Source of the DNA: Cordylochernes scorpioides
Lineage: Eukaryota; Arthropoda; Arachnida; Pseudoscorpiones; Chernetidae
Reading direction: 5' to 3'
Assembly: GCA_030710605.1 (NCBI GenBank)
Contig: CP092886.1
Span: forward strand, 164,341,302-164,405,301
DNA length: 64,000 nt
Shown: positions 25,701 to 57,431 of the stretch, in pieces
How the letters are laid out: each line of letters begins with the position of its first letter
Numbering within the stretch: position 1 is the first letter of the stretch
Translations under genes and position numbers: made by a program
The notes under the pieces: model-generated
The model's database searches: none
What the model was told of the DNA's origin: nothing
The model's input: the letters and a program-made list of their open reading frames with translations, nothing else

Positions 25701-28700
25701 TATGTCATTAATACAATACACACTTCAATGGTTATGAGAGATTGAAATAAAACATCCATATTTGATCTATTTCACATTTAAATAAAAGAGCTCGTGACCT
25801 TTTTGCCATTGGATATAATCAGAATACTCTAATAAATTTCGCAATTTTGAAAGAGTTACTTATGATAACAATCATCAAAAATACCTCTGCAGATCTTACT
25901 GCAATGATAAACATTTTCAGATGGAAGGGTTTTGCTCATCTAACAATTTAATCATTGCAGTAAGGTCTGCAGAGGTCATTTATGATGATAGTTATCAAAA
26001 GAAAAACATATATACGAAAAATGTGGAATTTATCGATATATGGCATTTAAAATTATAATTGCAATTGAAAGTCTCCTCCTTCATTTGAAAAAAAAAAGTT
26101 CAATCAATATTAAACTGTACTAAATTTTAACCTGGCACAAATGAATAATCTATGAGGTTTTTCTTTATCAAATACCTTAGATATTGTTACAATGGGATCC
26201 TATATTCGAGTAATGAGTAACTAGGTATTTATTAAGCATACTTATTTATTAAAATAACAATTATATTCTCACAATGAGTATCTTTTTTTAACGCTAGCTT
26301 TCAAGCGTTATTCGCTCTTCAACGGGCTTACAATAATATTGACTTGATCCCACCAGAAAAAAAAAAGATACTCATTGTGAGAATATAATTGTAATTTTAA
26401 TACTTTTTCACAATATTATCATGAATACTTATTTATTATTTTAGATTCGCTCAAGATATACAAAAGAAATTGTTATGAAATTATATTATTTTTATGAGTA
26501 ATATCTGAAAAAAATATATATATTTACAAAAAATAAAATATTACTATAAATTAATAAATTATACATATTCTAGGAAGCGCCACATTGGTAGTGTGGTCTT
26601 TATAATGAATGAAAAGGACATCCAAATATAAAGGACTTTGCAAGTCGTACTCGTACATTATAAGGCAAAACATTTTTTTTTTGCTTATCCCTAGTACACG
26701 TGGTACAGCCCATGATAATCATGGTGGGTAGTTAGCGACTGCCCTTTTACTGTAAGCGCACCACATGTCTACACATGTGTAAAGCAGTTCGACTTTGCAC
26801 TTACAAATATGCCAGAGCCCCGTTTGGTTACTTGCACTCGCTGGTGGGGTTGGACTTTTGCAAGAATCGGGGGCCATTGGAGCATTTTTTTTTAACAGAA
26901 AAAAGTGTCCAATGCGGGAATCGAACCCGGGTCATAGTGGTCGAAAACCAAACGGTTTACCAGCCTTCCACCGACCCCCCAAGGCAAAACATGAAGGAAC
27001 TCAATGCACCAAGTAAACTTCCAAAACTCTACGATGAAAACATAGTAGAGAATAAAAGAAACTATTTAGCGTTTTTTTTTTTTTTTTCGTTTCAAATATA
27101 CTACTGTCCTTACCGCAATGAAAAAAATATTGAGAAGGCCTGGCTCATCAGTAGTGAATCCTCCCCAGTAGTTTCCAAAGATTAATCTACACTACAAAGA
27201 TTTGCCATAAGGAATAAAAAATGCATTGTTTTGCTATGAAAACCTTCTCTTAAAAGATAAATATTTTTATTAAACAGAGGTTTAAAAACTAGCGTGACAA
27301 TAGGCGACTCTCTTCTGTTATCGTCCACAGCACATCCCATTTACCTCTTATTCACATTACCATATTTCTATAATCTACATTACCATAAATATTCCTAGCA
27401 CCTACTTTCAGATATAATGCAAGTTATTTTATAAACCTTTCGTGCTACATACATACTACCTTTATAATGAATAATATATTTTTAGTACATATCTTTTTAT
27501 TATTTCACGATTAACGCAAAGTTGAATCCATTTACACACACAAAATCAATATGCAACTTTTCTAGAGAATACATTCACAAAGAATCTTATCTATAAACGC
27601 GCCTTTATCTGTGTTGATATTAAAAAAAAAAACGTGTGATATGTTTAATCCATAAGATCATTTTTAAAATAAAGAAATATATATAGAGAAAGAGAGATAT
27701 GGATTTCTCAACAAAATATTAAATTTGAATCCTTCAATATTTTAAAGGAGAAAATCTCCTTGGCTTCGCAAAAACAATCCCCGGGCCCTAAGCCCCGTAA
27801 CAAGATCCAAACAGCGCGGTTGACACAAGGGCTTATGCCAAAACTAATTGGCGACGCTCGCTCCTCCCCGGCGCTGGCTCTTAATGAAAGCGTCCAGATT
27901 AGCTGAGCATCCGATCCAAATCTCTGAGCCTCTTAGCCGCTTCCGTGTTCCAGACTACGATCTGACACTCAGCCCGTCTCATTTCTATGCTTATACAATC
28001 ATTTGGAGAATTCGGAGAAAGCTGAAAAAAGGAATGGCTTAACAAGATCTTTTCTGTCTGGATATCTCAATTTGTGGCAATGTATTGCTCCTGGCTCAAG
28101 AGAAACCTAGATGCACCATTCTATTGAATTGAAACAAATTTACATATATATAGAATACTAACGTAAATATAAAAATGGTGAACACACAACATATTTCTTA
28201 CAAATTCTTCAATTCTTCACTCCATAATTATCTTGCTTAGGGGTCTTTGTCCAGATAAATCTCAAAATTCCGACTGTTCTTCTTCACCGAGGCGAAGAAT
28301 GCAGTTTGTAATCCCCACTTCATTCATAGAATCATCCAGTTGAGCTTCTTAATTAATTAATTGATTGTTCGGTGAAGTTGAGTCAGAGCTATGTTGTGGG
28401 GTCAACAGCTCCGCGATTGTTTGATTCAGCAAGAAGAGAACTTTAGTTAAAGTTTAGGTATTATAACAAGGGAAACATTTCAGAACTATTTATGTATCAG
28501 CATTTTAAATTTTTTTGAGTATTTCACCTTTTAAATTTAATTTAACGACATGTAAAAATGATTTAATATATATTATTGTACTTTTTGTGTGCTCACACAA
28601 CACACACACAAATCTGTGTGAGGAAATTTTAATTTTATTGAGCGTATGTTATCAATGATTTATATTAATTTCGATATACAATAAAAATGTTTTTGCATTT

Positions 28701-37700: not shown

Positions 37701-40700
37701 TAAGTTGTGTCCATGAGTGTAATTTATATCCTTAAGCCCATTATCAACAACAACTTAGTTCTTCCGTGTGCGCCATTCGCTCCATACGAACTCTACAGGC
37801 CACGCCTCACTGCCATGTATGTTGTATAGCAGAGTCTATTTTAAGCGGACACTCAAGAAACCGAGAAAAACATCTGGCTAACACACTTATTAGGCAGCCA
37901 CTGGCCCACGTGTAGCATTCAACAGGCTTCGACATAGGAAAATTTCGCTTCTAAAGCGGTTTTTATTTACTATATATTTAATGTCAACGTTTTTATTTCT
38001 CTTACAAACATTTTATTTAGTGACATCTATGAAAATGGAATGTTATCATTTCTCACAAATATTATTTACTAACATCTAGAAATTGTAGAGTGTAAAAAAT
38101 TCGCCAATATAAAATATATATTTAGATCATTTATGAAGTAAAAGATATTGAAAGCTAAAACTTCTTGAACGCATTCACTTGGGCTCCCAAGATAGAAAGA
38201 ATACCAAAAAGATTGTTCGTCTATACCTATGCTAAAATTGGAACGATACAGAGAATATTAAAATGGTCCCTGCGCAAGGATCACACGCAAAATCGTGAGG
38301 GTTTCAGAAGATAATTTCCAGAGAGGACTATCGGGAGATATCTTTCGCCTATCATAATCAACTTGACCCCCCGCGGCAAATTAATATTATTTAGAGCAAC
38401 ATTTTGAAAGAAATGATAACGTTAACATTTGGTGTAATTTCTTAGGTCATATTTAAAACAGATAAAACTTGATACACATAAAAAGTGAAAACATTTAAAG
38501 GAATTTATTTATGTGTTTTTAAAGCGGGAAGAGGGACTCTTTTCAGTAAAAAACCATTAAGAGGAAAATGAGAATTGCTGAGAATTAGTCTCTGTTACCT
38601 TTTGTAAAAAGAGACAAGTTTCACATATTAAGAAATGTTAATGCGATATTAGAGAAATTAACCCATTCGCGAAAAAGTGGAATACAAGATCGATATTAGT
38701 TTTGTAATTGCAAGTATATACGTATTCAGATTTCTCTTACGTTAATTTAGAGAACTATAGGAAGCGCCAGAAATCTGAATCTAGCTGCAATTCATGGATA
38801 CCCACTGCTTTAAAATATATTTGTGTGTGTGATTTAAATAGCATATATAAACGATTTCATATATATAATGAATACCACCTTCTCCCGCAACTTTTTGTTA
38901 TAGCTATATACTTATATATTCCTCGAATATATGGAACACATTCTATAATAATTATTGTGTGATTCATATAACATATACAATTTCATATATATGCAACTCT
39001 ATGTTATAACTATATACTATATATATATATATATCCCGCAAATAAATATGTAAAATTCTATAATAATTATTTAAACGATCGGGCTTATTTTGGATTAAAT
39101 AAATATTTTATTTCCAATATTTCAATGTACCAATCGTTTATCTTTTTATCCGTTTTTTTTAAGGCACGAAATCGCGTGTTGCAGTTAAAAACCTCGTAAA
39201 AGATGTACGATTGTTCGATCGAAATATTGGAAATACAACAATTATTATAATTTAAGCTAAAATGAGCCCTATCTTTAAATATATATATATATACATACAT
39301 ACAAAGTTTATCATTCTCTTTATTATTATCTCATTTAAAATACATCATTGTTTTAAATCGCTGTGAACTTCATGCTCCATGACAAAATCTTCACACCTTG
39401 TGTCATGCTTAAAAGACAATTACTGCTCAGCTCGCGTCTGCTCGAGCCGTCGCAGGAAATGCCCTGAGGAGATTGCCTGCACGGTCTGTGCTAAACCTTC
39501 AAGTCCGTGTCCTAAAAAGGTGAGTCCATCTTGCTTAGTTCCTCCGAAATGTACTTCAATATAAGCTGAGGGTCTAACATGACCTTGCATTGAGCTGCGA
39601 GTCACACAATCCCCGTCTTTGTGGCAGTTGCTAAAGAGCGAGGCTCCAAGAGAATGGCCAGCTTTCAACTTCCCAAGTAAGTTCCTATCTTTGACACAAA
39701 CACACACACTATATCGGAATATAAAAGTTCTTTGAAACAAAAATAATAAAGCGCTCTAAAAACATCTTTTTTCAGATACAGTTTTATTTGAAAGTTAGAA
39801 AAGAAACTGAACGACTCTATCTCGATAGCTTATACACACTTTTAAACTAAATTCTAATATATTTAGTGTTCATATATATATACGCAACAAATCTACGTTT
39901 ATAAAATGGTTCAATAATGGATATAGCTATATTTATAATTAGGTGATATTATGAATATACAATATATCAACCGTGCTAAGGCCAACACTCCACAATCCTG
40001 CTGGTGCCCAAGATGTAACGCGCAGCAAATGTTTCCCTCAGTTTTCCACCTGGAACCTGCGCACACGAAGCCCGTCTACCAGGAGGACGAGAACCAAGAT
40101 CTCAATGTGGACGACGATGACAGCGCCACCTATGGACAGCCCCAGTATCCTTCCTTCCAATATATTTAAATAACTTCGTTATTTCTCTCAATCTCTCCTA
40201 TAGCTTCTCTTCCTCTCAATCCTATAGCTTCTCGTCCTCTCAATTCTATAGCTTCTCTTCCTCTCAATCCTATAGCTTCTCTCCCTCTCAATTCTATAGC
40301 TTATCTTTCTCTCAATCCTATAGCTTCTCTTCTTCTCAATTCTAGAGCTTCTCTTTCTCTCCATCCTATAGCTTCTCTTTCTCTCAATCCAATAGCTTCT
40401 TTTTCTCTCAATCCTATAGCTTCTCTTCTTCTCAATTCTAGAGCTTCTCTTTCTCTCCATCCTATAGCTTCTCTTTCTCTCAATCCTATAGCTTCTCTTC
40501 TTCTCAATTCTAGAGCTTCTCTTTCTCTCCATCCTATAGCTCCTCTTTCTCTCAATTCTATAGCTTCTCTTTCTCTCAATCCTATAGCTTCTCTTTCTCT
40601 CAATCCTATTAGCTTATCTTTCTCTCCATCATATAGCTTCTCTTTCTCTCCATCCTATAAGCTTCTCTTTCTCTAAATCCTATAGCTTCTCTTCCTCTAA

Positions 40701-43700
40701 ATCCTATAGCTTCTTTTCCTCTCAATTCTAGAGCTTCTCTTTCTCTCCTTCCTATAGCTTCTCTTTCTCTCAATCCTATAGCTTCTCTTTCTCTCCATCC
40801 TATAGCTTCTCTTTCTCTCAATCCTATAGCTTCTCTTTCTCTCCATCCTATAAGCTTCACTTTCTCTAAATCCTATAGATTCTTTTCCTCTCAATCCTAT
40901 AGCTTCTCTTTCTCTCCATCCTATAAGCTTCTCTTTCTCTAAATCCTATAGATTCTCTTCCTCTCAATCCTATAGCTTCTCTTTCTCTCCATCCTATAAG
41001 CTTCTCTTTCTCTCAATTCTATAGCTTTTCTTTCTCTCAACCCTATAGCTTCTCTTCATCTCAATCCTATAGTTTCTCATTATTTCTTTTAAAATCCCTC
41101 AACCATTCCTACATTACTGAAAGTTTTTGGTATGAGCTTTGATATCTCTGAGACAAATGGGTTAATCTATATTAATAACAAGGGTTGTGTACCTTGACAC
41201 ATTAATTTATATGATATATACACAGGTTATAATATCACACCTCGTTTCATAATCATTGCAACTTTTTTTTACCTAAAGCCAGCCTGCAAAATGGCGTTTT
41301 CCTTTTTTTTTGTCATTTAGCTCAACAATGAAACCTTTCGTCTTGAAAAATTTAATCTTCAAATTTATGACCGAGTCAAACTGTCACTCGAGCATTTCCT
41401 CTCGCTCTCTAAGAATGAAACCTTTATCCCGGAATTGGAAATTATTTATATATCTGTCAAAATATATTATTGCTATACAAACTTACTTTTTCTTTCATTC
41501 GCGCGTTACCTACCAAATATTTTCTTCCCATGTTTGCACGTTACCAACGGGGTTTTCACAGGTTCCCATATGTGTCTGATGAAATTAATTCAAATATATT
41601 CTTTTAAAACACGGGAATACACTCAAAACATGGCGTGATACACGGCTGAAGGATTGGAAATGATTATCACTTCCGACACCCGAACCCACCAGTCGCCTGG
41701 TGGTAACCAGTAACCTGGTGGTTGGCCGTTGAATCAATGACAACTTCTTTGCTAAATATTGTTCTTGCATGTTCAATAGATACTTAGAGAAAGTTCCGTA
41801 TATAATTGTTTATTTTTTATCTAATCACACTCACGATTACTTTTTAAATAGCTTCAAAGATAAAAATACTCCATGTCATCCTAAATGAAGGTGGAAACAT
41901 CCAAATATTTTGCCATGTTCAGCAACGAGCCAATTACTCCAGAGGGAATCCCATGGAATGTAAACAGAACGGAGAAGAGGCCCAGATGGCGGAACATGAG
42001 AACGCGAGATTTATATTTAGACAGCTATGGGGACGATGACATGGGATCCATCTGCACTCGGGGATCACGAGGGTCGCCCTGGTATCCAGCGGCATTTGGA
42101 CTTGGATTGGTGTTTGGTGACATTCTCTCTATGTGGCACAATATCACCGCCCAAGTGGTCAATGTTCGTTTTTTTTTAAGAACTTGATGATTCTTAAACA
42201 GAGCATTGATCAAGTGACTCTAGCTTTTCCAACGTCTTCCTACATGAATCAATGTTATATCTAGAACTGGATGAGTTAAAAAAAATAGTTATTTGGATGT
42301 TATGGAAACGATATATTCTAAAACAAAAAGTAATTTCTATAATATAATAATTGCGCTTGGAAACATGATAGAGGAACACGCATTAATATTTCATGTTTCC
42401 TTTCGCGAGAATGCTTCTTAAATTCACATAAAGCATTATGAACGCTAGCAATCCCCATTGTAGATACAATTACAATTTAAGCACAATTTATATATTAATT
42501 TTATCGACATATATCACAAGTGAGTTCAATTTTAATTTGAAAAACTGAAAGTTAAAACTGTTAACCAATATATCGATTGACTATATTGCCATTTTAGTAG
42601 TAGCTCTATTTTGTTTTGAAATGTTTTGCGGTATTATGTTGCATGAATGAACCGCTCGAAGCTGCACGCGATACAAATCAGGCATTTTACAAACAACTAA
42701 AACCCTGAAGATGAGCGTACAGCCAATCGCAATATGTTTATATAAATTCAAGATGTTTGAATATATGAAGCATTATATATGCAGAGTATGTAGGTCTGAA
42801 ATATGTAGAATACACGTATTTAAAAATCACTGTTCTAAGAGAATAACCAAAATCAAGGAGCGAAAACGTCGCTTGTAAAGGAAAATGGAGGAAGGAAAGC
42901 TGCCAAGATGACCCATTTAATCTCGGGATAAATCAAATTTAGCGCATTTACAAATTGCCCTTCGATATTCAATTGTTTTGAAGTTTAACGGCGGGGGTGG
43001 TGGCGGGCTCAAGGGCTTGCGCGGGATGAAGTCGGCTGCCATTTATCAGAGCTGCGTTCTCTGCGCTTCCATTTGGTGCCTCACTCATTCTGTACAACTG
43101 GTCTAGAATCCCTCTCAACTAGTAAGTTTTAATGATTACATTTACTTTATTATTTATATTTGTTTTAATTTTATAAAAATATTTTTAAAGTCAGAAATAA
43201 AATCATATTGCTGTACCAAGTTGCAGCTTTGCAGGGTCATCGACCTTGGTTTCCTCCTTCTTGGTGTTATACACGTTTCCTGAGAAGGTTTCCATACTTA
43301 AATAAAATGAAGAAAAGTAACTAAAAGTAAAGTTATTGTGTTTATTTATTTGTTGCCTTCCTCGTAGCTCGTGATCCTGAGTCTTGCTCTAGGTCCTCTC
43401 TCCCTCCAATAACCAATCAAGATATATACAATAACAATATTACAAAAGAAATGATACCATTGTATATAATATGTTTTAAATAAATATCATAGAATATTTT
43501 GAATAATTGTAGGGCGCATCAAAATCGATGCAACAATATTTATATATGTATATAACATAAAGAATGGTATTTATATCTACCAAAAGTGACACCTCTTTCT
43601 TTAAAAATGCATAAAAACAATGCATTTCGTTTATCACCCACGTGAATATCGTACAGGTTGTGATCAAATAAGCCACAACACATCACATATAAGTTTCGGC

Positions 43701-49700: not shown

Positions 49701-52700
49701 AGTGTCATTATCCCTCCTTCACATTCTGAACTCTCTGATTCGAAACCAATTAAGAGCAATTCCTCTATAGGCTTCTTATTGCACGCCCTGAGCGTCTGAG
49801 AGCTGGAGCCCGTCTTCTGGAGGGATTGTCGGCGCCCATCGCAGGTGAGTCCAAGCTTCCGGCATTTCAAAGCTTTCCATCTCTCATTAACTAGCACAAA
49901 ATTGATAGTTATTCAAATAAGGGATTTATTTTGAATTTTCTAATTGATTTTTATTTTCCAGTAGTTCGATGGACTATTCGTCTATCTTTAATGAGGTGTT
50001 TGTTTTGAAATAACAGAAATTTGCGCGCAGTAGGTGAGAAAAGATCGTCTCACAAGCTCCTTGAGAGAAAATGTATCCAATTGGATGGTTCTCACCTGCC
50101 AGCGCGCGGCTTGCTGCTATTTATAAACGAAATACCTCAGAAAAGATGGATAAATAACCCATAAAATATATTGGATGATAAAAATTAATTATTAAATCTT
50201 AAATAAACCTCTTATATTAATATATATTATGGATTATGCTCCATATTCAGAAGAATTCATAGTTTAAATCCACGTAGTGTATTAACTATAAATTAAACAT
50301 ATAAGCTATATATAGGAATGTAATCCGTCAAAATCAGCCTAGAGAGTCTTAGTATGAAGTTTTCAGGTTATTTCTCTCAACTCACTATAGTATTCGTTAT
50401 ATCAGATTATATTTTACCTATGAACAAGCTCTCGCATTAAAATATTACAATTTAAGCTTATATTTATTTTGTCACAACAAACCACGCAGACATAAATTAT
50501 GAAAAAATTAATGAAAGAAAATATAAAATGATATACCAAGATCATATATAGTCTTCTAAATAAAATTAAACTATTTATTGCAATTGAGATCTTTCCTTAA
50601 ACGTCTTCCAAAATGAATGATCTTAATGAAATACAATAAATAATAGCGATCATAAAGCATATGCAGATAGTGTATATATATATGGGTTGACCAAAAATCA
50701 GGAAACAGGCTAAATCAACGTTCAGTTGATTTTTGTTCTACTAGATGGGCGTTCTCATCTGAAAAGCACATGTGCTCGTGATCAGGATATGCCTTCTTTG
50801 TTTTTAATATATATATGTATTTCAAAATTTCATTAACATATTTACACATTTCCCATTATTATACAATTGAAATCGTAGTATCTGTATAAGATGAAAACGA
50901 AAAATTTAATTTATGAAAGCATAAAGCGTTGCTCTTACAAATCTTCGGCGATATTCAAATCAAATTTGTGGAAAAAATTAATTTCGTGCCGGAAAAGTCC
51001 CGATTAACTCTACAAACGATTATAACAAACTACTTCAGCGTCTCCAACACCAAAAGCGATTAAGGAAAATTAAGTAAAGGTTTCTCGCATTTCTATATCT
51101 TCAATTAGATTGAAGGATTCGATATATCCACTGCAAGATCTATCTTCGGCCAAGTTGCTGACTCCGTTCAGATTTATCAGAACTTCGACCAATATTGATT
51201 TGAGAATTTGGATTATCGAAATTTTATTTTATTGCAAAAATTCGGTTATACACTACGATATAACGGCAATTATCCACATAAGACATATATTTCAAACTCT
51301 TTAATTATATATAAACAGAGAATAAAATGAGAGCTTTATATAATAGGACTCTTTCTCTTTTCTCTATATTGAATCAGTAGTATAAATTTGTTTATTGGCC
51401 TATAGCAGAACTTTGCTAAATGAACACTCTGTTGTATTTGAATATAGATTTGACGCTTGGTCTCAATCATCAATTGGTCAAATAGAATTATAAATAGGGA
51501 TTTCTTCGGCTTTTTAAAATACCAATAAACGTTTTAAATATAATTAAGAAAAAATATTTAATCGAATTTTCAGAGAATATACAAGATATGATTATACCTT
51601 AATGATCATACCTTGTATTAATAGATTTTTGTTCTTAAATATATGGGAGGATGATATTTTAAAATTTTAAAGATTTTTTTTAAATGTTCAATATATAAAG
51701 TAGTTATCACGTTATAAATTAAGTGTAAATAAGTGGAAACTTGATGATAAATGTTCACTATAGATAGGGTCTTGTGTCACAAACTATCCAAATGAGCGGC
51801 CCTGCAGAACACGTGTTTGAATGACGACAACCTTGCATTGCAGGACCTAAAGGTAGCAAGGAGGAACAGAAGGAGGACAAACAACAGAGGTAAGTTCCCT
51901 AACACACTCTCCAAGTAGTTCTAGGACACAATACATTACTTATACACTTATAGACAAAACTTAAGGAAGTCGAAACTTTGATGTCACCCGTCGTCTATTT
52001 TTTAAGAAGCAAGAAGCAATTTTGTCCACACTTGGTTATCTCGTGTGTCTTCAATAAAGGTAACTGTGCATCAAATATTTTACAGAGTTATTGTCTGAAT
52101 CCCGATATACATGCTGAAAGGTAAAACTTCCTTAAGTTTTGTCCATGAAAATGTACTTCTACTTTACACACTAATGGAAATAGAAATTAATACATCCAGA
52201 AGGAGTTAAAGATAAAAAAGGAATTCAGCTCAAAGTAATTTCTTGTGTCATGTAATTGATTCAATTTTGGATGAAAATCATCTACAATTAGTCTATCTTA
52301 AATTATTCATTTTAAATCATCTGGTCTATGTAATAATCTGCTCATTCATACCAAATTGGAAGATATTTCATCAGCTCCTTCTGGGTATAACACTTTCTTT
52401 CTATTCCCACGACCTTGGATTCACAGCCACGACCTTGGATCGAATCCCGAACTGGGAACTTTTTTCTTAATTAAATATTTTTCCGATTGCTATCGATTCT
52501 TCTGAAAGTCCAACCCAACCAGTTAGTGAAAGTAACCAAACTGTGCTATGGCACAATTGTAAGTGCAAAAGTAGAGCTGCTTTCTACATATCGTCCCTAC
52601 AACTGCAAACTATCGAATGTGAAAAATTCAATTTTGAAGGAGAGAGAAATGAAGAGACCATGTGGCCTACCCTCAGTAGAGGAAGGCATTGAAGGAGGGA

Positions 52701-55700
52701 GAAATGAAGAGACCATGACATGGTCTCTTCATTTCTCCCTCCTTCAATGCCTTCCTCTACTGAGGGTAGGCCACATGGTCTCTTCATTTCTCTCTCCTTC
52801 AAAATTGAATTTTTCACATTCGATAGTTTGCAGTTGTAGGGACGATATGTAGACATGTGGTGCACTTGCAATAAAATCAGTTGTCTACTACTACCCACCA
52901 TGATTATCGTGGCCTGTACTACGTGTACTAATGATAAATTGAAAAAAACATGTGTATATGAAAATTCGAAACTATTTTAGATGCGTAAGATTCTTCTGAA
53001 GTTAAACAATTTGAAGAAATTGTGTATATATAAAAAGCCTATAGTGGATATCAAAGAAAGTTAATTTATTTACCAATACTTCGATCAACATCAAGCCAAC
53101 CTTTATCAAGATACTAAATAGGTAGGAAAACACAGATTTTTGTGCCTTGATAAATTTTTGATAAAAAATAATGAAACTTTTTGAACCGGGTTTTTCTGGC
53201 ATTGTATCGAGTAGGCTCTGTGATGAGTGTCGCGATGCGTGTCTTTGCGCCCCACACAAATCTATGTTTAGTTAATTTAGATCTTGCGCACGAAAGTTCT
53301 TTCTATTTTCCATTATATTGCCACCAGATATTAAACCTTAAACTTTTGTTAGCTATATTTTATCGTTTATTTTAAGTCAATTTATTTTACGCACCTGAGT
53401 AAGAAGTACACACAGAAAGTTTAATTATTGGAAACCATCAGTTTTATACCAGTATGTGCTTGTATTTCAACAACTCTCTCTCACGTGACGGATAGAAATG
53501 TTATAAAAATACTGACAATGGAAACACCCGCAGTAGAAAGTGGTTCTGGAAAACGAAATTATGGTTAAAATGATGTTCTTTTATACAGTTGTATTTTTCA
53601 ATAATAAAATAGTTTTATACACTTTCAAATCTTCGTTCATCCGTTGGGAAGTCTCCAGGCGATTTATTGTGTAACATGCGATGTTTATTCTGTGTCTGCA
53701 AGATGTCTAGAGCGTAACTTTCACGGTTTATGTTGTGGTGTTTTCATGATGTTAAGAGTGTAACATGTAAGGGTCATTTTCCCATAACTTTCAAGGTTTA
53801 TTTTTTCGTGTCTCCAACACGTTTAGAGAGTAACATGCAAGGTTTATTCAGTGCCTCCAAGATGCTTTGAGCGTAACTTGTAAGGTTTATTTTTCCGTGT
53901 CTCCAAGATGTTTCAAGTGTAACATGCAAGGTTTATTTCCCGTGTCTCCAAGATGTTTCAAGTGTAACATGCAAGGTTTATTTCCCGTGTCTCCAAGATG
54001 TTTCAAGTGTAACATGCAAGGTTTATTTCCCGTGTCTCCAAGATGTTTCAAGTGTAACATGCAGGGTTTATTTTCCGTGTCTTCAAGATGTTTCAAGTGT
54101 AACATGCAAGGTTTTATTCCGTGTCTCCAAGATGTTTCAAGTGTAACATGCAAGGTTTATTTTCCGTGTCTCCAAGATGTTTCAAGTGTAACATGCAAGG
54201 TTTATTTTTCGTTACTCCCAGCGATATCTTCAGTTTAATCTCTAGAACACTTTATTATCCTATTCGACTTTTGCTTTATTCAGGAGTAGTTAAAAGTAAA
54301 ATTGAACTGAATAGAAACACTATATTGACACAGTTTTGTCAACGTGTTGTCAACGTGCTGCGCAGTTCCCAGGGGGCCAGCGGGAAGGACGAGGTGGTCG
54401 AGCTGAAGCTCTCCGACAGTTTGAAATGCTACATCTGCCGGGTAAGTCTTGCTCCTTCGTCTCACTTTAAGTTCTTTACTTCCGCCTGTATTCTATATAT
54501 ATTAAAAACAAAAATACATATCCTGACCAGACTCACGTGAGCATTTCTAGAGGGCAGAGCGCAGATCTGCTCATGCGAGCCTGGTCAGGATATGCCTTTT
54601 TGTTTTTAATATCAACACCTGACCTTTTTTTATATTTTTATTGTTTTTACACACACACATATATATTAAAAATAAAGAAAGCATATCCTGACCACGAGCA
54701 CATGTGCTTTTTAGATTGCAGAGCGCCATCTAGTGGAGCAAAAATAAACTAAACGTTTATTTAACTTGCTCCGTGATATTTGGCCAACCCAATTTCTTGA
54801 CAAATCAAGAAAAGCCATCCACTAATTTGCACCACATATATAAACATATTTTTGAATTTATGCTAATTTAAGTTACTTTTTTATTTTGATAAGGAATATA
54901 TATAGAATTATAAAGTACATTAGCATCATTTTATTTGAACAGAGATATGTCACATACTGTACTTACAAGATTTACAAGGAAAACGCCTCTTCAATAAAGT
55001 TCGGGACAGAAATACTTGGATATATACAACGTTTTTTCACTCATATATAATTTTTATTAAATCAACTGCTGCCATTCAACGGGGTAATAAGCCTCCGCCA
55101 AACAATTCGTAATTAAGTTATGACGCCTCTGTATATCAAAAAGGAATAAACACTCGTGACTTCAATTAAAGTGTTACTTTTAGAAATAAAGATACTTCGG
55201 CCAGTAAATCTTTTTATTACCTCGACGTTTCGACAAAAATATTTTGTCCTCGTCAGGAGCAAACAAAAATTAAAACATTTAGCAAGGCATAAAAAGATTT
55301 ACTGGCCGAAGTATCTTTATTTTCAAGAAAAATGAATGCCGACCAGGCAGCCTCAATCCTTACGATATTCATACGAATTAAATGGTTCAATATTGCTAAA
55401 GTAGGATTGTATGAGTGATTTAAATTAAATAAATGGATATATAAACTAGAGAGTATGATCCCAGGTATAGTTTCTTTTCCTTCAATCACTGGCTAGTACT
55501 TGTCTGGACTTATTTCTTGAGCGAACACTTTCTTCACACTTATTTTATACTTTTTGGACTCCTTCTCCGATATGTGTTGCTTGGGCGCATACTTCACCAC
55601 TTCATTCTCGAGCCGACACGCTCTGGACTCCCCACTCGTACATTCTTGATCAGCAGGTATTCACTTACTTTAGATGGACATACTGGGGTCGCCCACTCAT

Positions 55701-57431
55701 TCCTTTTCACACTTCTCTATTTATCACCCGCAGCCTCTCCAATGCTAACTTCTAGAAGACAACAATCACTCCGCCTCTTTCCCCCATATTTTTATTCCCT
55801 TTTGTTCACCTTTCTTCGTTTTTTTTTTCTTCGTCTTCATAGAACAAAGATTGGAGAAGGGTTGCGACCAGGCTCACCGACAGATACCAATTTCATTTTA
55901 AATGTCAACATAATGTACACTCATAGACAAGGTTAAGGAAGTTTTACCTTTTAGCATGTATATCGGGATCCATACAATAACTCGGAAAGATATTTGATAC
56001 AGAGTGAACTTTATTGAAGATACACGAGATAACCAGGTGTGAACAAAATTGCCTCTGTCTCCTTCAAAATGAATAAATAAATAACAGACGACCGGCGTCA
56101 TTGAGACATTCCACTTCATTAAGTTTTATTCATGAGTGTAAACATCCGTTTTTCAATTCGTTAATTCTCTTCATTAATTGGAAATAGTTAACATTTTAAC
56201 CATAAGTATATCTCGTTCAGTAGGTGGTAGAATATCTAAATTGAGGATAAATACACGTTGTACTTGGGTATACGTGGCTTACGTGGCTCCACCGCAGGAG
56301 CTCTACTCCCGGCCCGTGGTGTCCGTCTCCTGCTGGCACGTGCACTGCGAGGACTGCTGGCTGCGCACCCTGGTAAGTCCTCCACCGCCTGGGTGGACAG
56401 TTGAGCCGCGCTTTAACAACATGGCGGTGAACAATTCTTCATTCATAGCCAGATCAAATTCTTTGTATCTTATTGTACAACATAATGATAGAACATCACC
56501 TGATTGTTCAACTGTTACTGCTGATGGCTTTCTACCATCTGAAAAGTTAACAACCAAACGTTAATTTTTATTTACAAAAATGGGCAAATGCCCATTATGA
56601 AGTATCAAAAACCATTAAATTAGGCGTTTCGGGTTGTTGGCCCTCAGCATAGTGATGCATGCTTAACGTTGAAGACCCACCAACAGGATATCTTCACCTT
56701 TCATATTTATAATAATAATTAAAAAACTTTATCCATTTGGGATGAAAGTATGGATACTATGCGTCAAGTTAAAGTGAAGATATTTAAAAAATAATAAATT
56801 ATTTCCCTTTAATTAACCTTAGCCATCAAAATGAAAACTCATTTCTTTATGCTTGTATAAATTAAGCATATTCAGCTCGAGACAACTCTGAATGGAGATT
56901 CACTCTAAGCATTTACTTAAGATAAAAAGTGCACACATAGTGCATGTTGAATACCCTCTGAATATATGTAATATTTTTTATCGTTATAATAGAAGAAACA
57001 ATTCTTCTTCTCACTCTTTAGCTTTTTGATATGATATGTTTTTATTATCAGTTCTATCAAGGTCTAAAAATTACAAATATTTTTCACAATGAGTTCCTTT
57101 TTATTTTAAATCGCAAACTTTCAAGTGATAATAATTTTCTTACAGAAATATTCAATTGTTTTAATAAAGCTTGTTGAAGAGCGATTATCGATTGAAAGCT
57201 TGCAATTTATAATTAAAAGAAACTCATTGCGAGAAAATATTTGTAGTTTTTGAACGTTTTTCACAATTTTATACTGAATCTGTCAAGGTCAGGTTTTAGT
57301 TGAGAGATTCGTCCTGTGAGCAAGCTTTCCTTACATTGTGGGTGTCCCCGGTGTCGCAGGGCATCAAGCGACTCTGCCCCCAGTGCAGCATGATTACCGC
57401 CCCCCGAGACCTGCGCCGAATCTTCATGTAG
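10681..57431 (+). CDS. RNF220: RNF220-like RING E3 ubiquitin ligase, whole gene model (15 exons)
   Basis: Proposed join: 10681-10749, 11968-12289, 34247-34352, 35901-35937, 37263-37334, 37391-37433, 39431-39519, 39628-39676, 40042-40144, 47629-47697, 47754-47803, 51844-51889, 54366-54441, 56298-56372, 57360-57431. Every junction keeps phase and the total is 1278 bases, giving 425 residues against about 566 in human RNF220. Seen: an N-terminal block with SYLPNPMTSSALMVLA, a CPVC...HAH finger-like motif, VRANRQNRLN, an acidic stretch followed by YGQPQY, and a terminal C3HC4 RING ending APRDLRRIFM. Known for the family: RNF220 is an E3 ligase acting on nuclear and cytoplasmic targets (Sin3B, Gli factors) and linked to beta-catenin and to ZC4H2. 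Expected here by homology: an E2-dependent ubiquitin ligase. Least certain are exon 1, exon 8 and the choice between exon 11 and an alternative exon. The gene identity itself is secure. Confidence 0.93.
11257..11373. mobile_element. CATATCCTGACC hairpin MITE, copy 1
   Basis: Arms aaaaaagacatgtcctgacc gctcacac and complement. The family has terminal TTAAAAACAAA. Other copies: 45175-45237 (half), 50682-50815, 54499-54612, 54657-54795. Confidence 0.65.
11479..11592 (+). repeat. GGCTCATCA hairpin-family copy
   Basis: Reads ttactgcaatgatatgag, gggcttggctcatcagtag, ctctcagcggtttcgccaaa and ctctactattgtattggat. The stretch gtgaccctctcagcggtttc can fold on itself. This is the fullest single copy in the window. 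Confidence 0.65.
11698..11770 (-). mobile_element. tRNA-like (SINE head) sequence
   Basis: On the minus strand TGGATGAGAGG resembles a pol III A box and GGGATTGAATCCC a B box with paired flanks, spaced as in a tRNA. No acceptor stem closes, so it is a tRNA-derived SINE head rather than a tRNA gene. Confidence 0.4.
11968..12289 (+). CDS. RNF220: RNF220 exon 2, N-terminal conserved block
   Basis: Follows tgtgcag and ends CAGAAAA|gtaagt, phase 0 in and 1 out, 322 bp. It encodes SYLPNPMTSSALMVLAADQ near its start, close to vertebrate SYLPNPLASPALMVLAS, then a Phe/Pro-rich stretch (FGFPFRPMFP), a segment with SAFVPTKR like vertebrate SAFTPAKR, and a Ser/Asp/Pro-rich end. GC content is far above the flanks. 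If exon 1 is wrong, the in-frame ATG at 11953 would provide a start without a splice. Confidence 0.9.
12589..12784. mobile_element. MITE with ACATACC...GAGTGCC inverted repeats
   Basis: Left acataccgagagtgccttta and aatcccgattttgtcagta face right tactgacaaaatcggg and ttaaggcactctaggtatgt. Arms of about 55 bp with small differences; TA near both ends. One copy, 300 bp after RNF220 exon 2. Confidence 0.7.
12790..14560. other. Intronic sequence, nothing clear
   Basis: AT-rich intron of RNF220. The 161-codon minus-strand frame at 13689-14174 has no recognisable motif and low-complexity edges. Confidence 0.3.
14560..14840 (+). mobile_element. Possible LINE 3' end remnant
   Basis: Ends with a hairpin (attagggctgacggccctaa) followed by taaaaagctt, like the hairpin plus AATAAAGGCTT end of the 17.5-kb LINE. 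No target duplication found. A second fragment, cttgtatagggctgttgttg, lies at about 14625. Confidence 0.35.
14840..17035. other. Intronic sequence with two GC islands
   Basis: GC-balanced stretches at 15780-15910 and 16400-16740 stand out, without coding logic. The 16900-16966 hairpin lies here. The rest is AT-rich. Confidence 0.3.
16900..16966. repeat. Hairpin with ATATATTGGATTTAAT arms
   Basis: ataataaaaggcatatattg gatttaat faces its exact complement. A single arm (caatatatgcctttttaatt) also occurs at about 15244. Confidence 0.7.
17049..17168 (-). mobile_element. LINE 3' tail, minus strand, 13-bp target duplication
   Basis: ATTTTCTTCGTAG at 17036-17048 and 17169-17181 flanks a 120-bp copy of the same LINE tail as at 4.6 kb (DPEQQLYTPKIVDIAAAVIE), ending in (CAA)n on the minus strand. 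Confidence 0.85.
17517..18327 (+). mobile_element. 5'-truncated LINE with 16-bp target duplication
   Basis: GACATTCAACATTCTC at 17501-17516 and 18328-18343 brackets an 811-bp insert. It encodes the end of a non-LTR retrotransposon ORF: a helical tail with GYLLGDFPFPVVRLLAQVRI, a frame break near 17870, then a zinc-knuckle-like CTFCNSKLKNEITHYIFDC (C-xx-C...H-xxxx-C) and a stop at 18123. A roughly 200-bp 3' UTR holds a short hairpin (agggtcagtgaccct), AATAAA and a (TTG)n tail. RT is missing, so it is immobile. Confidence 0.88.
18685..18816. mobile_element. Hairpin element, second dated copy, 12-bp target duplication
   Basis: TAATCGTTGATT at 18673-18684 and 18817-18828 flanks cgaaactattttaaaggcgt ... 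agatggcgcgctagtgcatc. It is shorter than the 5.4-kb copy because part of the right arm is missing. Confidence 0.8.
19480..20215. promoter_or_regulatory. GC-balanced non-coding island in the large intron
   Basis: About 700 bp of complex, repeat-free sequence with CTAATTGAATGACCATTCAA, GATCAATCG, and CAGCTG E-box-like sites near 19975-20005. All frames are short. Typical look of conserved intronic regulatory DNA; unproven. Confidence 0.3.
20762..21272 (+). mobile_element. 5'-truncated LINE-like insert with 14-bp target duplication
   Basis: GAAACCTGCCAGTT at 20748-20761 and 21273-21286 flanks 511 bp ending gtcttaataaaggctttt and a (TG)n run. The 3' end resembles that of the 17.5-kb LINE (aataaaggctttttgttg), so I class it as a related element. 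Its coding part is too short and decayed to confirm. Confidence 0.7.
22245..22905. repeat. Tandem array of 156-160-bp units
   Basis: Four copies plus a partial one, each starting near taattttattgcga and including gtgtcataatgtcactagta, gatgttaatgagagaggtat and caataccgcaacactgaggt. Starts at about 22246, 22404, 22563, 22723 and 22879. Non-coding, nucleosome-scale period. Confidence 0.9.
22905..23070. promoter_or_regulatory. GC-rich island after the tandem array
   Basis: Contains ACCAATTAATGTGG, a CRE-like GTGACGTCAGC, CCATAAACACC and GGGGACAATTACAACC in 130 bp, with no ORF. Candidate regulatory element. Confidence 0.3.
23900..25340. other. GC-richer intronic block, no recognised gene
   Basis: Two islands (23900-24640 and 24940-25340) with competing ORFs of 70-90 codons on both strands, none with a family signature or splice logic. 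Could be regulatory DNA; the ORFs look like chance frames in GC-balanced sequence. Confidence 0.3.
25862..25998. repeat. Foldback with TTACTGCAATGAT arms
   Basis: tgataacaatcatc...ctctgcagatcttactgcaa faces its complement ttgcagtaaggtctgcagag...gatgatagttatca. It shares the TTACTGCAATG core and ctcatc block with the hairpin family. Confidence 0.65.
26248..26401. mobile_element. Inverted-repeat element (CTCACAATGAGT family), copy 2
   Basis: Arms ttatattctcacaatgagta and complement, loop with gctcttcaacgggctta. Lies in the large RNF220 intron. Confidence 0.75.
26674..26980 (-). mobile_element. tRNA-derived SINE with 12-bp target duplication
   Basis: AAGGCAAAACAT at 26662-26673 and 26981-26992 flanks a 307-bp element. 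On the minus strand it begins with a tRNA-like head: A-box-like TGGAAGGCTGG and a perfect B box GGTTCGATTCC. A body shared with 52.4-52.9 kb and 62.8-63.0 kb follows, and an A-rich tail (T run on +). The head would be a pol III internal promoter. Confidence 0.88.
28875..29880. repeat. 42-bp minisatellite with splice-donor-like motifs
   Basis: Unit is two related 21-mers, aggtgagcatatgcaagaat a and aggtgagaccatgtaagagc c; about 20 units. On + each unit contains CAGGTGAGC and AAGGTGAGA, close to the 5' splice-site consensus. Unit length 3 x 14 creates spurious ORFs of 181-321 codons. Confidence 0.95.
30000..32340. other. Intronic sequence, mostly featureless
   Basis: A GC-balanced island at 30180-30470 and another at about 31900-32140; otherwise AT-rich with no repeat family or coding frame I can support. 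The island near 32000 ends 200 bp before the Tc1 element. Confidence 0.3.
32346..33763 (+). mobile_element. Complete Tc1/mariner transposon
   Basis: Starts CACTGCGTGACATTGAAAAT and ends with its reverse complement; the TIRs of about 46 bp differ by one inserted base. TA dinucleotides flank both sides (32344-32345, 33764-33765). It contains one uninterrupted transposase. It lies in the 22-kb RNF220 intron, sense to the gene, and carries its own AATAAA at about 33661. Near-identical TIRs and an intact ORF suggest recent insertion. Confidence 0.95.
32588..33619 (+). CDS. Tc1/mariner-family transposase, intact
   Basis: 343 residues, usual Tc1 length. The N-terminal paired-like DNA-binding half includes a helix-turn-helix (about residues 20-60, GWSIRQIAADTHLGASTVH). 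The C-terminal DDE domain has SDESRF (first Asp), QQDNARPHTA (second Asp) and SPDLSPIEHVW (Glu). I count 32 residues between the second Asp and the Glu, two fewer than the common DD34E. The enzyme acts in the nucleus, cutting at the TIRs and inserting at TA. No frameshift or stop is seen, so it could be active. Confidence 0.95.
   Translation: MPGHRKRRQFKQTDAFTRGMVIGLKRAGWSIRQIAADTHLGASTVHRLWRRWLEQGNVAIYRNVGATRVTSARVDRRILRQAVAAPQATCTAILQHVQDTLDHSISTRTISRRLVANGLHSCRPLRRLPLTPPNRRQRLEWCRARSMWMTEWHRVVFSDESRFCLSSDSRRVRVWRRRGERSNPAAIVERPTVRQRGIMVWGAIAYDSRSPLLRIQGTMTAQRYVDDVLRPVTLPYLQGVPNALYQQDNARPHTARISQQALQDVQMLPWPPYSPDLSPIEHVWDIIGRRLHALPQPRSEDELWQMVEREWRAIPQDAIRTLIDSLPRRVAAYIAVRRGPTCY
33843..34035 (+). 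mobile_element. TA-flanked MITE, copy 2 (left TIR deleted)
   Basis: Same family as copy 1 in opposite orientation. It begins cactcacccgatgtcgcccg, lacking about 35 bases of the left TIR, and ends gtttgtccatgagtg before TA. It lies 80 bp after the Tc1 element. It contains a short TG run. Confidence 0.75.
34247..34352 (+). CDS. RNF220: RNF220 exon 3, CxxC finger-like motif
   Basis: Acceptor gcgcag, phase 1 in (completing AAG with exon 2) and 2 out. It encodes SSEPSCPVCGQALRPADFHA and then HLQLELERLTSLVN. This parallels vertebrate CPICQVLLRPSELQEHMEQE, a CxxC plus His putative zinc motif followed by an acidic helix. The donor AACAG|gtcggt is weak; an alternative donor at 34345 (CTG|gtgaac) would end in phase 0 and skip the microexon frame. 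A 101-codon ORF at 34191-34496 is a different frame over the same bases. Confidence 0.9.
34683..34852. mobile_element. MITE with ATTAAAGACTT inverted repeats
   Basis: attaaagacttctgaaaaac acgccacc at the left pairs with the right end gcgtggtgttttcaaaaagt ctttaat; inner blocks gatccaga / tctggatc also pair. Confidence 0.7.
35030..35340. promoter_or_regulatory. GC-balanced intronic island
   Basis: Repeat-free, non-repetitive sequence between RNF220 exons 3 and 4 with mixed composition; the 72-codon ORF here does not fit the gene's phase. A similar island is at 36240-36470. Possible regulatory DNA. Confidence 0.2.
35901..35937 (+). CDS. RNF220: RNF220 exon 4, 37-bp microexon
   Basis: Preceded by gttgttgcag and followed by gtacgt, strongly GC-rich inside AT-rich intron. 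With phase 2 in it reads GRGGGGSSPPSR after the shared Arg codon and ends in phase 0, exactly what exon 5 requires. Without it, exon 3 joined to exon 5 runs into TGA after ten codons. It encodes a flexible Gly/Ser/Pro linker between the CxxC block and the STPSPAESEL segment, where vertebrates have a Ser-rich linker of different sequence. Confidence 0.72.
37263..37334 (+). CDS. RNF220: RNF220 exon 5
   Basis: Acceptor gactgtgcag, donor GAG|gtacgt, 24 codons, phase 0 to 0. It reads STPSPAESELKRGLYGDKPE followed by SRWE. The TP-x-SP and ELKR spacing resembles vertebrate GTPKSLLLSASIKREGESP. The other two frames contain stops. A 56-bp intron separates it from exon 6. Confidence 0.88.
37391..37433 (+). 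CDS. RNF220: RNF220 exon 6, VRANRQNRLN block
   Basis: Acceptor gtgcccag, donor gtaagt, 43 bp, phase 0 to 1. It encodes TYQRVRANRQNRLN, nearly identical to vertebrate TFLRVRANRQTRLN, the most conserved segment of the middle of RNF220. A copy of a 207-bp TA-flanked MITE begins 80 bp after its donor. Confidence 0.93.
37513..37719 (+). mobile_element. TA-flanked MITE, copy 3
   Basis: Starts cacttatggactaaactta and ends gtgtccatgagtg, TA on both sides. Lies in the intron just after RNF220 exon 6. Its 86-codon ORF is carried by the repeat and is not a gene. Confidence 0.8.
39431..39519 (+). CDS. RNF220: RNF220 exon 7, basic and Cys-containing block
   Basis: Acceptor tactgctcag, donor AAG|gtgagt, 89 bp, phase 1 to 0. 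With the preceding G it completes NARV then SSRRRK, like vertebrate NARIGKMKRRK. It continues CPEEIACTVCAKPSSPCPKK, which adds a CxxC and more Cys not present in my recollection of the human protein. These could form a second zinc-binding site specific to this lineage (inference). Confidence 0.88.
39628..39676 (+). CDS. RNF220: RNF220 exon 8, candidate 49-bp exon
   Basis: Strong acceptor (cccgtctttgtggcag) and strong donor (gtaagttcc). Phase 0 in and 1 out bridges exon 7 (ends 0) to exon 9 from 40042 (needs 1). It reads LLKSEAPREWPAFNFP. It has no homology that I can see. The alternative is that exon 9 starts earlier in phase 0, at 39981 or 40026, and this segment is not used. Confidence 0.55.
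40042..40144 (+). CDS. RNF220: RNF220 exon 9, acidic YGQPQY block
   Basis: Start chosen after tgtttccctcag, the best pyrimidine-tract acceptor; phase 1 in, 2 out with a weak donor CA|gtatcc. It encodes EDENQDLNVDDDDSATYGQ and the split codon completing PQY, paralleling vertebrate DADLDVDGDDTLEYGKPQY. The same frame is open upstream to 39951 and includes SCWCPRCNAQQ, so a longer exon 9 with an extra CxxC is possible. The 24-bp pyrimidine minisatellite begins about 35 bp after the donor. Confidence 0.88.
40179..41080. repeat. 24-bp pyrimidine minisatellite with splice-acceptor-like units
   Basis: Unit ctctttctctcaatcctata gctt, about 37 copies, starting 35 bp after the RNF220 exon 9 donor. On + every unit is a pyrimidine tract ending TATAG. 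The minus-strand Arg/Glu-rich ORFs (RERKRSYRIE type) are artefacts of the 8-codon period. Confidence 0.95.
41885..42160. other. GC-balanced island with a 100-codon ORF
   Basis: The + frame 41885-42187 (MKVETSKYFAMFSNEPITPE...) is open over the whole island, but it ends in AT-rich sequence without a donor-like edge in the phase needed. A forkhead-like TGTAAACA is present. Coding exon or conserved non-coding element; undecided. Confidence 0.25.
42190..45085. other. Intronic sequence, one GC island
   Basis: A GC-richer stretch at 42840-43110 with no ORF and a weak GGCTCATCA-family trace at 43955-44050. The remainder is AT-rich. Confidence 0.3.
45085..45385. repeat. Short tandem triplication around a MITE fragment
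   Basis: caacgctactttcaaatcat taaaaactatttc, ttcaggctttatactc occurs three times (about 45092, 45254, 45320). Between the first and second copies is a half-copy of the CATATCCTGACC MITE. Confidence 0.7.
45715..45930. other. GC-balanced island with an open + frame
   Basis: After gtattcag the frame reads ELTPPGYDMSFIQQDWERSA. RNF220 needs a phase 2-to-2 exon in this intron if any, and I find no donor that gives it. Left unassigned. Confidence 0.2.
47629..47697 (+). CDS. RNF220: RNF220 exon 10
   Basis: Acceptor attttttcag, donor gtaagt, 69 bp, phase 2 to 2. It reads YSETDLSCTQSKVEQPENKD then KL, matching vertebrate YTEADVIPCTGEEPGE after the YG-KPQ block. It is followed by a 56-bp intron. Confidence 0.88.
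47754..47803 (+). CDS. RNF220: RNF220 exon 11, 50-bp exon
   Basis: Acceptor tttgctgtttttag, donor gtaagt, phase 2 in and 1 out. It reads NSDKSTISSCWSIETI, Ser/Thr-rich like the weakly conserved region before the RING. A nearer AG at 47729 would give an immediate TAA, supporting this acceptor and a 56-bp intron. Confidence 0.68.
49771..49844 (+). CDS. Candidate alternative RNF220 exon
   Basis: A GC-rich 74-bp segment with acceptor tcctctatag and donor GCAG|gtgagt. Only the phase-2 frame is open: LLIARPERLRAGARLLEGLS then APIA, out in phase 1. This is the same phase class (2 to 1) as exon 11, so it could replace exon 11 but not be added to it. It may equally be a conserved non-coding piece with chance splice signals. 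Confidence 0.3.
50682..50815 (-). mobile_element. CATATCCTGACC MITE, long form
   Basis: Reverse complement aligns along its whole length with 54657-54795: cctgatcacgagcacatgtg, a catctagta block, aacgttgattta, and a ggtcaaccca end. Confidence 0.65.
51844..51889 (+). CDS. RNF220: RNF220 exon 12, Lys/Glu/Gln-rich
   Basis: Acceptor ccttgcattgcag, donor AG|gtaagt, 46 bp, phase 1 in and 2 out. It reads PKGSKEEQKEDKQQ, a charged, probably helical or coiled linker ahead of the RING. Phase-2 entry gives an immediate TAA, so an exon of class 2 to 1 (exon 11 or its alternative) must precede it. Confidence 0.72.
51945..52153 (+). mobile_element. TA-flanked MITE, copy 4
   Basis: Starts cacttatagacaaaacttaa and ends gttttgtccatgaaaatg, TA on both sides. 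Inserted 55 bp after the donor of RNF220 exon 12. Confidence 0.8.
52400..52945 (+). mobile_element. SINE copy interrupted by a palindromic insertion
   Basis: The left part (about 52400-52588) follows the 26.7-kb SINE in order: ggatcgaatcccg, gaaagtccaaccc, aagtaaccaaac, gtaagtgcaaaagt. The right part resumes at tgtagacatgtggtgcactt and runs through ctacccaccatgattatcgt to an A-rich tail. Between them sits the 52583-52853 palindrome, absent from the 26.7-kb copy. The head boundary is uncertain. Confidence 0.8.
52583..52853. mobile_element. 271-bp near-perfect palindrome
   Basis: Two 135-base arms are exact reverse complements around a single unpaired base at 52718. Each arm contains two near-identical repeats with gagaaatgaagagaccatg. 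The outermost bases (tctaca/tgtaga) belong to the host SINE, so the insert is probably TA-TCGTCCC...GGGACGA-TA: a foldback MITE with a TA target. Transcribed in the RNF220 intron, it would fold into a long hairpin RNA. Confidence 0.85.
53640..54225. repeat. 45-bp minisatellite
   Basis: Unit gtgtctccaagatgtttcaa gtgtaacatgcaaggtttatttccc; about 8 good copies in 53880-54215 and decayed ones before. The 15-residue repeats seen in ORFs (CFKCNMQGLFPVSPR) are artefacts. Ends about 140 bp before RNF220 exon 13. Confidence 0.92.
54366..54441 (+). CDS. RNF220: RNF220 exon 13, pre-RING and first RING cysteines
   Basis: Acceptor gtgctgcgcag, donor CGG|gtaagt, phase 2 to 0. It reads SQGASGKDEVVELKLSDSLK then CYICR. 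CYIC supplies zinc ligands 1 and 2 of the RING (vertebrate CLIC). A 45-bp minisatellite ends about 150 bp upstream. Confidence 0.92.
54499..54795. mobile_element. Two adjacent CATATCCTGACC MITEs
   Basis: 54499-54612 is a short hairpin (atattaaaaacaaaaatacat ... complement). 54657-54795 is the long form with gagcgccatctagtggagca. Both follow RNF220 exon 13 within 60-350 bp. Confidence 0.65.
55185..55335. mobile_element. Penelope-type terminal inverted element with CTGACGA...GAAA core
   Basis: Arms ataaagatacttcggccagt and complement. On the minus strand the middle holds CTGACGA (55250-55256), a perfectly pairing GACAAAA...TTTTGTC and GAAA (55228-55231). The same family is at 59058-59205; a related tail (ctttattttcaagaactatg, aatgccgacca) is at 19000-19080. 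Confidence 0.55.
55918..56138 (-). mobile_element. TA-flanked MITE, copy 5
   Basis: Starts cactcatagacaaggttaag and ends ttttattcatgagtg, TA on both sides; same orientation as copy 1. Lies about 160 bp upstream of RNF220 exon 14. Confidence 0.8.
56298..56372 (+). CDS. RNF220: RNF220 exon 14, RING core
   Basis: Acceptor caccgcag, donor CTG|gtaagt, 25 codons, phase 0 to 0. It encodes ELYSRPVVSVSCWHVHCEDC then WLRTL, near-identical to vertebrate SIQCWHVHCEECWLRTL. It carries RING ligands 3 to 6 (C-x-H-xx-C-xx-C). Confidence 0.96.
57062..57254. mobile_element. Inverted-repeat element (CTCACAATGAGT family), copy 3
   Basis: More diverged arms (atttttcacaatgagttcc / gaaactcattgcgagaaaat) with the loop inverted (gttgaagagcgattatcg). 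Sits in the last RNF220 intron, about 105 bp before exon 15. Confidence 0.7.
57360..57431 (+). CDS. RNF220: RNF220 exon 15, end of RING and stop
   Basis: Acceptor cggtgtcgcag. It reads GIKRLCPQCSMITAPRDLRR then IFM and TAG, against vertebrate GAKKLCPQCNTITAPGDLRRIYL. CPQC gives ligands 7 and 8; the DLRR tail after the RING is an RNF220 hallmark. A hairpin element ends about 105 bp upstream of the acceptor. Confidence 0.96.
   Translation, partial: GIKRLCPQCSMITAPRDLRRIFM

Follow-up and report, generated by a model that had tools for sequence, protein, structure and literature searches.

The stretch of DNA considered here (the window) comprises 64,000 nucleotides from the pseudoscorpion Cordylochernes scorpioides (assembly GCA_030710605.1, contig CP092886.1, positions 164,341,302 to 164,405,301 of the forward strand). 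It contains, within a short interspersed element (SINE) that itself lies in an intron of a likely RNF220-like gene, a perfect palindrome. The two arms of this palindrome, at 52583-52717 and 52719-52853, are each 135 nucleotides long and are exact (100%) reverse complements of each other, with the A at 52718 as the sole spacer base, an arrangement for which the chance expectation at the base composition of the window is ~3e-72 per window. An earlier, sequence-only reading of the same DNA had described these arms and their one-base loop, and the description holds. The best explanation, to which a probability of roughly 0.83 is attached, is that the palindrome is a young palindromic fold-back miniature inverted-repeat transposable element (MITE), inserted at a TA dinucleotide, likely by a Tc1/mariner-type transposase from another element, and that such perfect palindromes are unstable, the copy in the window being too young to have decayed.

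The element, its boundaries and its target

The SINE runs on across the insertion, such that 52431-52589 corresponds to 26933-26775 and 52845-52953 to 26776-26670, which are neighbouring stretches of an uninterrupted copy at 26.7 kb in the window (Table 1). From a B-box-like stretch the SINE appears to be of the tRNA type, and ARAGORN found no tRNA in it. Since the SINE target (CTACATATGTAG) is itself palindromic, the outermost bases of the palindrome, TCTACA and TGTAGA, together with the adjoining TA on each side, are target DNA; moreover, the uninterrupted target holds a single TA, and therefore the inserted part is 52591-52845, with the TA duplicated. In other words, the mobile element is 255 bp long with 127-bp arms. 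The sequence-only reading had taken the element to extend over 271 bp, which is correct for the palindrome, but not for the element, the outer TA and six host SINE bases on each side being target; its claim of a TA target duplication is borne out by the single TA of the empty SINE targets as against the TA on both sides here.

The exact 32-base SINE target, with CTACATATGTAG inside it, occurs without an insertion and with its single TA at 39 places among the matches listed, 16 of which belong to a single tandem array (contig C5), and at 24,799 places genome-wide (12,421 forward, 12,378 reverse) when up to three mismatches are allowed. In the array itself (C5:40550084-40552716) the target stretch recurs 16 times at a spacing of 153 bp or a multiple of it, which suggests a tandem array built from SINE sequence. 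Among 67 sampled copies of the element (see below), four have both flanks in the same SINE as the window copy (match at E 0.001), one of them at a different TA. All 67 carry TA at both ends, although this is partly built in by the selection of copies, so that it is the uninterrupted SINE targets which make the case for TA duplication.

Read outward from the element over the 134 flanks of these copies, the target consensus is TA, T (0.99), A/G (0.86), T (0.75), A (0.46), then A (0.59) two places on. This palindromic, AT-rich preference is like that of Tc1 from Caenorhabditis elegans, which likewise inserts at TA and for which the available text of PMC9635669 and PMC8525568 gives the symmetric consensus CAYATATRTG (here and below, published sources are cited as far as their available text goes). 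Sleeping Beauty targets are palindromic too (PMC5801840). The element has both the terminal inverted repeats and the TA duplication of a Tc1/mariner-type MITE, and it combines short size, leaving no room in its 255 bp for a transposase gene, with many copies. Inside the inner arm there is, in addition, a 29-bp direct repeat (52634-52662 and 52689-52717).

Table 1. Features of the insertion, its host SINE and the surrounding gene (window positions)
Feature	Position	Strand	Basis or remark
Palindromic non-autonomous transposon TCGTCCC...GGGACGA	52591..52845, 255 bp	strandless	exact inverted repeat; ends recur hundreds of times genome-wide, seen in 67 copies
Left arm	52591..52717, 127 bp	+	exact inverted repeat
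Right arm	52719..52845, 127 bp	-	exact inverted repeat
One-base loop, A in window copy	52718..52718	strandless	
TA target-site duplication, left	52589..52590		
TA target-site duplication, right	52846..52847		
Host SINE bases TCTACA, part of palindromic target	52583..52588		uninterrupted CTACATATGTAG in SINE copies
Host SINE bases TGTAGA, second half of palindromic target	52848..52853		uninterrupted SINE copies
Outer arm domain	52591..52635 (mirror image 52801-52845)		common to 81-bp palindromes of the family
Inner arm domain	52636..52717 (mirror image 52719-52800)		~1.5 units of dispersed 55-bp minisatellite
SINE part left of insertion	52431..52588	+	76% to 26.7-kb copy
SINE part right of insertion	52848..52953	+	81% to 26.7-kb copy
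Uninterrupted SINE copy, for comparison	26670..26933	-	
RNF220-like gene, likely first exon	within 11953-12321	+	presumed likeness; no Pfam match
RNF220-like gene, likely RING exon	near 56298-56372	+	Pfam zf-C3HC4_2, E 1.6e-7
RNF220-like gene, likely last exon	ends near 57431	+	presumed likeness

The palindrome family and its decay

In the 2.62-Gb source genome the terminal 52-mer of the element, with at most three mismatches, has 350 forward and 351 reverse matches, where the reversed control gives 0 and 0; half of these 701 terminal 52-mers puts the family at at least 350 elements. The sequence-only reading had named, as what would speak against it, the lack of other copies together with a non-TA junction; what was found is this large family, with TA junctions. 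For closer study 68 both-ended copies were examined, the window copy included, which were drawn from the best arm matches, from mismatch-free ends on the first contigs and from single-ended places; L080 was left out as a segmental duplicate of L079, giving the 67 copies. In the numbering of loci used here, L001 and L002 both denote the window copy, L049 and L051-L054 are repeats of L003 and L005-L008, and L050 is a repeat of L004; loci with one arm end only (L004, L029, L035, L036, L037, L040, L044, L045, L046, L048, L061, L064, L073) and those fetched later (L089, L090 and L091-L095) stand outside the 67. L079 and L080, on contig C4 at ~52.28 and 51.76 Mb, form an inverted segmental duplication identical at 1009 of 1011 bases, both halves of which hold the same palindrome with two units in one arm and one in the other (2+1).

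The flanks of the sampled copies are unrelated to one another, and both orientations occur, the centre base of the full-length 2+2-unit copies being A in 18 of 29 and T in 11 (L074, a 3+1 form the middle base of which is not the centre, is not counted). The arms of the window copy are identical to the consensus from independent loci, and 63 copies (L038, L063, L074 and L077 left out) depart from it by 26 letters over 14,516 aligned sites, a divergence of 0.18%, which is a lower bound for the family because most copies were chosen for good ends, the window copy itself being unchanged. Since the window copy equals the consensus and the sampled copies differ from it so little, the insertion is recent.

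Two units in each arm are found in 30 of the 67 copies. A further 15 are of the 2+1 form, three carry an arm of three units, and in 19 the centre is altered, among which L043 may be readable as 1+1; the unit forms found are 2+2, 2+1, 3+2, 3+1 and 1+1. In the 2+1 class the longer arm carries centre A in nine copies and centre T in six, and one of the class, L018, has a different unit junction. The loss of one unit therefore arose repeatedly.

Internal deletions, of 8 to 113 bp, were scored in 16 copies, with L043 taken as one 110-bp deletion; the complex or inserted cases L038, L063 and L077, and L041 with a single base, were left out of the tests. All 16 reach to within 9 bp of the centre, where 8.45 would be expected and none of 200,000 simulations scored as high. 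The centre base itself is gone in 11 (expected 7.04, P 0.012), and in 11 a breakpoint falls no more than 10 bp from the centre (expected 3.62, P 0.0001). Homology at the junctions averages 2.5 bases as against 0.86 (15 deletions, without L043). Genome-wide, the central 35-mer has 224 forward and 223 reverse matches at up to three mismatches, and as every centre is counted on both strands there are ~224 intact centres to at least 350 elements; without mismatch the counts are 95 and 101.

Whole arms are also missing. Among the matches listed there are 24 places with a single perfect end, of which 20 were examined over the surrounding 10 kb (one same-strand pair was not counted): 11 have a second arm, and nine have none within 5 kb. 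These nine break off at nine different arm positions, and their continuations are not shared with each other; in the stretches fetched around L004, L061, L064 and L073, 0.9 to 3.1 kb in length, there is likewise one arm. The single ends were also checked as halves of cargo-carrying composite transposons, for which the same nine of 20 lack a partner within 5 kb, a partner farther away being possible. Instability is expected where a palindrome has long, closely similar arms and little spacer between them (review, PMC7999016). With hundreds of insertions to compare, of which those sampled differ hardly at all, the family may serve as a natural record of palindrome decay in a genome, in which the routes recorded are one-unit losses, short-homology deletions at the centre, arm loss and, perhaps, arm-to-arm copying.

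Minisatellite arms, short forms and known systems

The full 55-bp unit of the inner arm is found 2505 times genome-wide (1282 forward, 1223 reverse; at most three mismatches), more than three times the number of element ends. The pattern that spans a unit-to-unit junction is found 2626 times (1420 and 1206), some of the listed matches lying 55 bp or multiples of it apart. Among 100 junction places listed, eight are identical to the element's unit, four of these being known three-unit elements, two are one base off and 90 are two bases off. At the edge of L036 there is an array of ~8 units, 89-92% alike to the arm. The greater variety of the minisatellite, as seen in few arrays, suggests that the element took up the minisatellite and did not seed it. 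The window itself is rich in minisatellite arrays of other periods, at 2378-3272 (period 48), 9564-10014 (44), 29002-29832 (42), 40196-41078 (24) and 53785-54212 (45).

The outer 31 bases of the element, with at most two mismatches, occur 413 and 412 times, which exceeds the count of the 52-mer, and part of this surplus consists of 80-81-bp palindromes with the same ends as the long form. Five short copies were fetched: L091-L093 are perfect palindromes of 40-1-40, L094 pairs at 39 of 40 positions around another centre, and L095 is 132 bp long with extra central sequence. The long-form arm matches the short form (L092, L093) over 47 bases, through its centre and six bases beyond, after which the minisatellite begins; AAAATTCAATTTT, which forms the centre of the 81-bp palindrome, is present in each arm of the long form. 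Moreover, a 178-bp deletion in the long form via a 6-base repeat (AATTTT) yields exactly the 81-bp sequence, although the different centre of L094 is not accounted for by that deletion alone. Either the long form would have grown from the short one, or the short form would be a microhomology deletion of the long one, and the alignments accommodate both. A tentative, somewhat unlikely extension of the former is that palindrome breakage makes new members: an 81-bp MITE would have broken six bases past its centre, the half would have been joined to the 55-bp minisatellite, and a fold-back inverted duplication would have mirrored the joined half into a two-ended palindrome, which then spread. By eye there is a two-base TT homology at the join of short form and minisatellite, and half-elements such as this origin would need exist today, in the nine one-armed places. 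If true, palindrome breakage would be a source of new palindromic MITE members.

MITEs carrying tandem repeats, palindromic MITEs and fold-back elements with repeats in their arms are already known. Made1 of primates (Made1/Hsmar1), which is derived from mariner, is a nearly perfect palindromic MITE that gives RNA hairpins (PMC1784062), but it is 80 bp long, with 37-bp arms and 6 bp between them, whereas the palindrome here has 127-bp arms, a one-base loop and minisatellite units; the 80-81-bp forms are near Made1 in size. The review PMC9659126 treats miDNA4 of Xenopus tropicalis, listed under Tc1-mariner, and Xmix/Xstir of Xenopus laevis, the Xstir motif being listed in the terminal inverted repeats. 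These too are MITEs with a satellite motif, although the review describes them as sources of satellite DNA. Tetris of Drosophila virilis (PMC4079207) is likewise non-autonomous, with long inverted arms and internal tandem repeats of variable number, as found here; its repeats also occur in separate arrays, and no autonomous copy was found. It differs in its 8-10-bp target duplications, its ~220-bp repeats and its middle domain, and it is said to have seeded a satellite; the present element has a TA duplication in place of 8-10 bp and no middle domain, and the one separate array readable here departs by 8-11% from the element's units, as against 0.18% among the sampled elements. Foldback4 (FB) of Drosophila melanogaster shares palindromic termini and variable repeat modules, but is larger (627-2266 bp) and has internal sequence (PMC2955051).

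Within the open-licence literature, searched mostly at the level of listings, no MITE was recognised that is nearly perfectly palindromic and at the same time composed of minisatellite units, and the available text of PMC2820488 holds none. Beyond the sequence-only reading, the present analysis adds the minisatellite in the inner arms, the ends shared with the 80-81-bp palindromes and the decay focused on the centre. In this family a cut-and-paste MITE and a dispersed minisatellite come together, the element having possibly acquired the minisatellite; in the published cases compared, as far as their available text goes, the direction is from element to satellite.

Mobilisation, alternative explanations and gene setting

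The TA duplication and the Tc1-like target preference point to a transposase of the Tc1/mariner type. The element would have been cut from a donor site and pasted by such a transposase, supplied by another element, landing at the TA of the SINE inside the intron of the RNF220-like gene. The perfect palindrome would then be prone to losses, presumably after insertion and by hairpin or cruciform breakage or by replication slippage, sampled copies having lost a 55-bp unit from one arm, the centre through short-homology deletions, or a whole arm; the window copy would be too young for this to have occurred.

Several points weigh against this account. A search that covered elements sharing 14, 17 or 21 end bases and then diverging turned up neither a transposase nor a longer element with these ends: the opening 14 bases, with four non-matching ones after them, yielded one place (reversed control, one forward and one reverse), the 21-base pattern only two altered copies of the palindrome family, and the 17-base pattern, of low power, none. 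The ends (TCGTCC) are also without the CAGTG start common in Tc1-like elements. The copies were mostly chosen for good ends starting with TA, such that frequencies in the sample are not those of the genome, and the 9-bp and 10-bp limits of the deletion tests were set after the deletions had been seen, by which the P values flatter the case. Internal deletions could, moreover, also come from abortive gap repair after excision, which likewise spares both ends. Tc1 itself is autonomous, with a transposase, and its ends are unlike those of the palindrome. A Tc1-like element does lie in the same gene, at 32339-33770 on the + strand; its inverted ends measure 46 bp (96%), and it has an open transposase frame of 345 aa (HTH_Tnp_Tc3_2, DDE_3). 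As a mobiliser it was set aside, its ends (TACACTGCGTGACATT) being different from those of the palindrome.

The strongest competitor, possible though the less probable account, concerns the deletions rather than the insertion, and holds that they arise in transposition, through abortive gap repair after excision, and not through breakage of the palindrome in place. Short junction homology and kept ends are expected of interrupted gap repair, and the 16 scored deletions show both, even if both ends were required for scoring. The one-armed places, with their nine break positions, and likewise L004, L061, L064 and L073, are not, however, what gap repair confined to the element would predict. As to the transposase, the family might belong to another TA-duplicating superfamily, an unlikely alternative that draws on the lack of a matching transposase in the search with the 14-, 17- and 21-base end patterns and on an end sequence presumably unusual for Tc1-like elements; against it, the Tc1 consensus and that of the targets here are closely alike.

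The perfection of the arms might be due to arm-to-arm copying, by gene conversion or by template switching in the hairpin, in which case the arms would be no clock for the insertion. Of the changes in the 63 copies, three are private ones that recur as symmetric pairs in the two arms of the copy concerned (L013, L023, L084), for which chance coincidence is very unlikely; they may nevertheless be inherited from a changed source copy, and 20 changes stand in a single arm. Conversion within one copy, furthermore, could not yield what is seen in the window, arms equal to the consensus of independent loci, and arm copying as the explanation is accordingly quite improbable. The sequence-only reading had offered recent insertion or strong gene conversion; the former stands, and the latter may happen at times, as at most a minor cause beside youth. 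Perfect palindromes are, finally, a known class of assembly or sequencing fold-back artefact. Identical, precise ends and a target preference in 67 copies with different flanks speak against that origin here, as does the inverted segmental duplication of L079 and L080 with its 2+1 copy held twice, such that an artefact is barely conceivable; with hundreds of copies and the SINE continuing on both sides, the sequence-only reading was right to prefer an insertion.

The gene around the insertion, on the + strand, is likely RNF220-like, a name that rests on the Pfam match of the RING exon and on the first and last exons, which we take to resemble RNF220. The placement within RNF220 by the sequence-only reading is sustained in so far as likely RNF220-like exons (first, RING and last) are present on the + strand, the name itself coming from that presumed likeness. 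The RNF220 profile of Pfam (PF15926), with 14 of 14 candidates scored, matched only on contig C6, in two short matches, and no PDB sequence matched the RING piece at E 0.01. The palindrome sits in the intron preceding the RING exon, and the RNA of 52583-52853 is predicted to fold into a single long hairpin (-259.4 kcal/mol, z -40.5), in agreement with the ~135-bp duplex that had been foreseen and that might serve as a substrate for Dicer or ADAR. Its position between likely exons and this fold, together with the origin of hsa-mir-548 from the palindromic MITE Made1 (PMC1784062), might suggest a regulatory or small-RNA-producing hairpin of the gene. The window copy is, however, the family consensus, with nothing to mark it off from its sister copies, and such a role is very unlikely. 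Elsewhere in the window, 38211-38314 on the + strand is a full-length match to U6 snRNA (70.4 bits), either a gene or a pseudogene.

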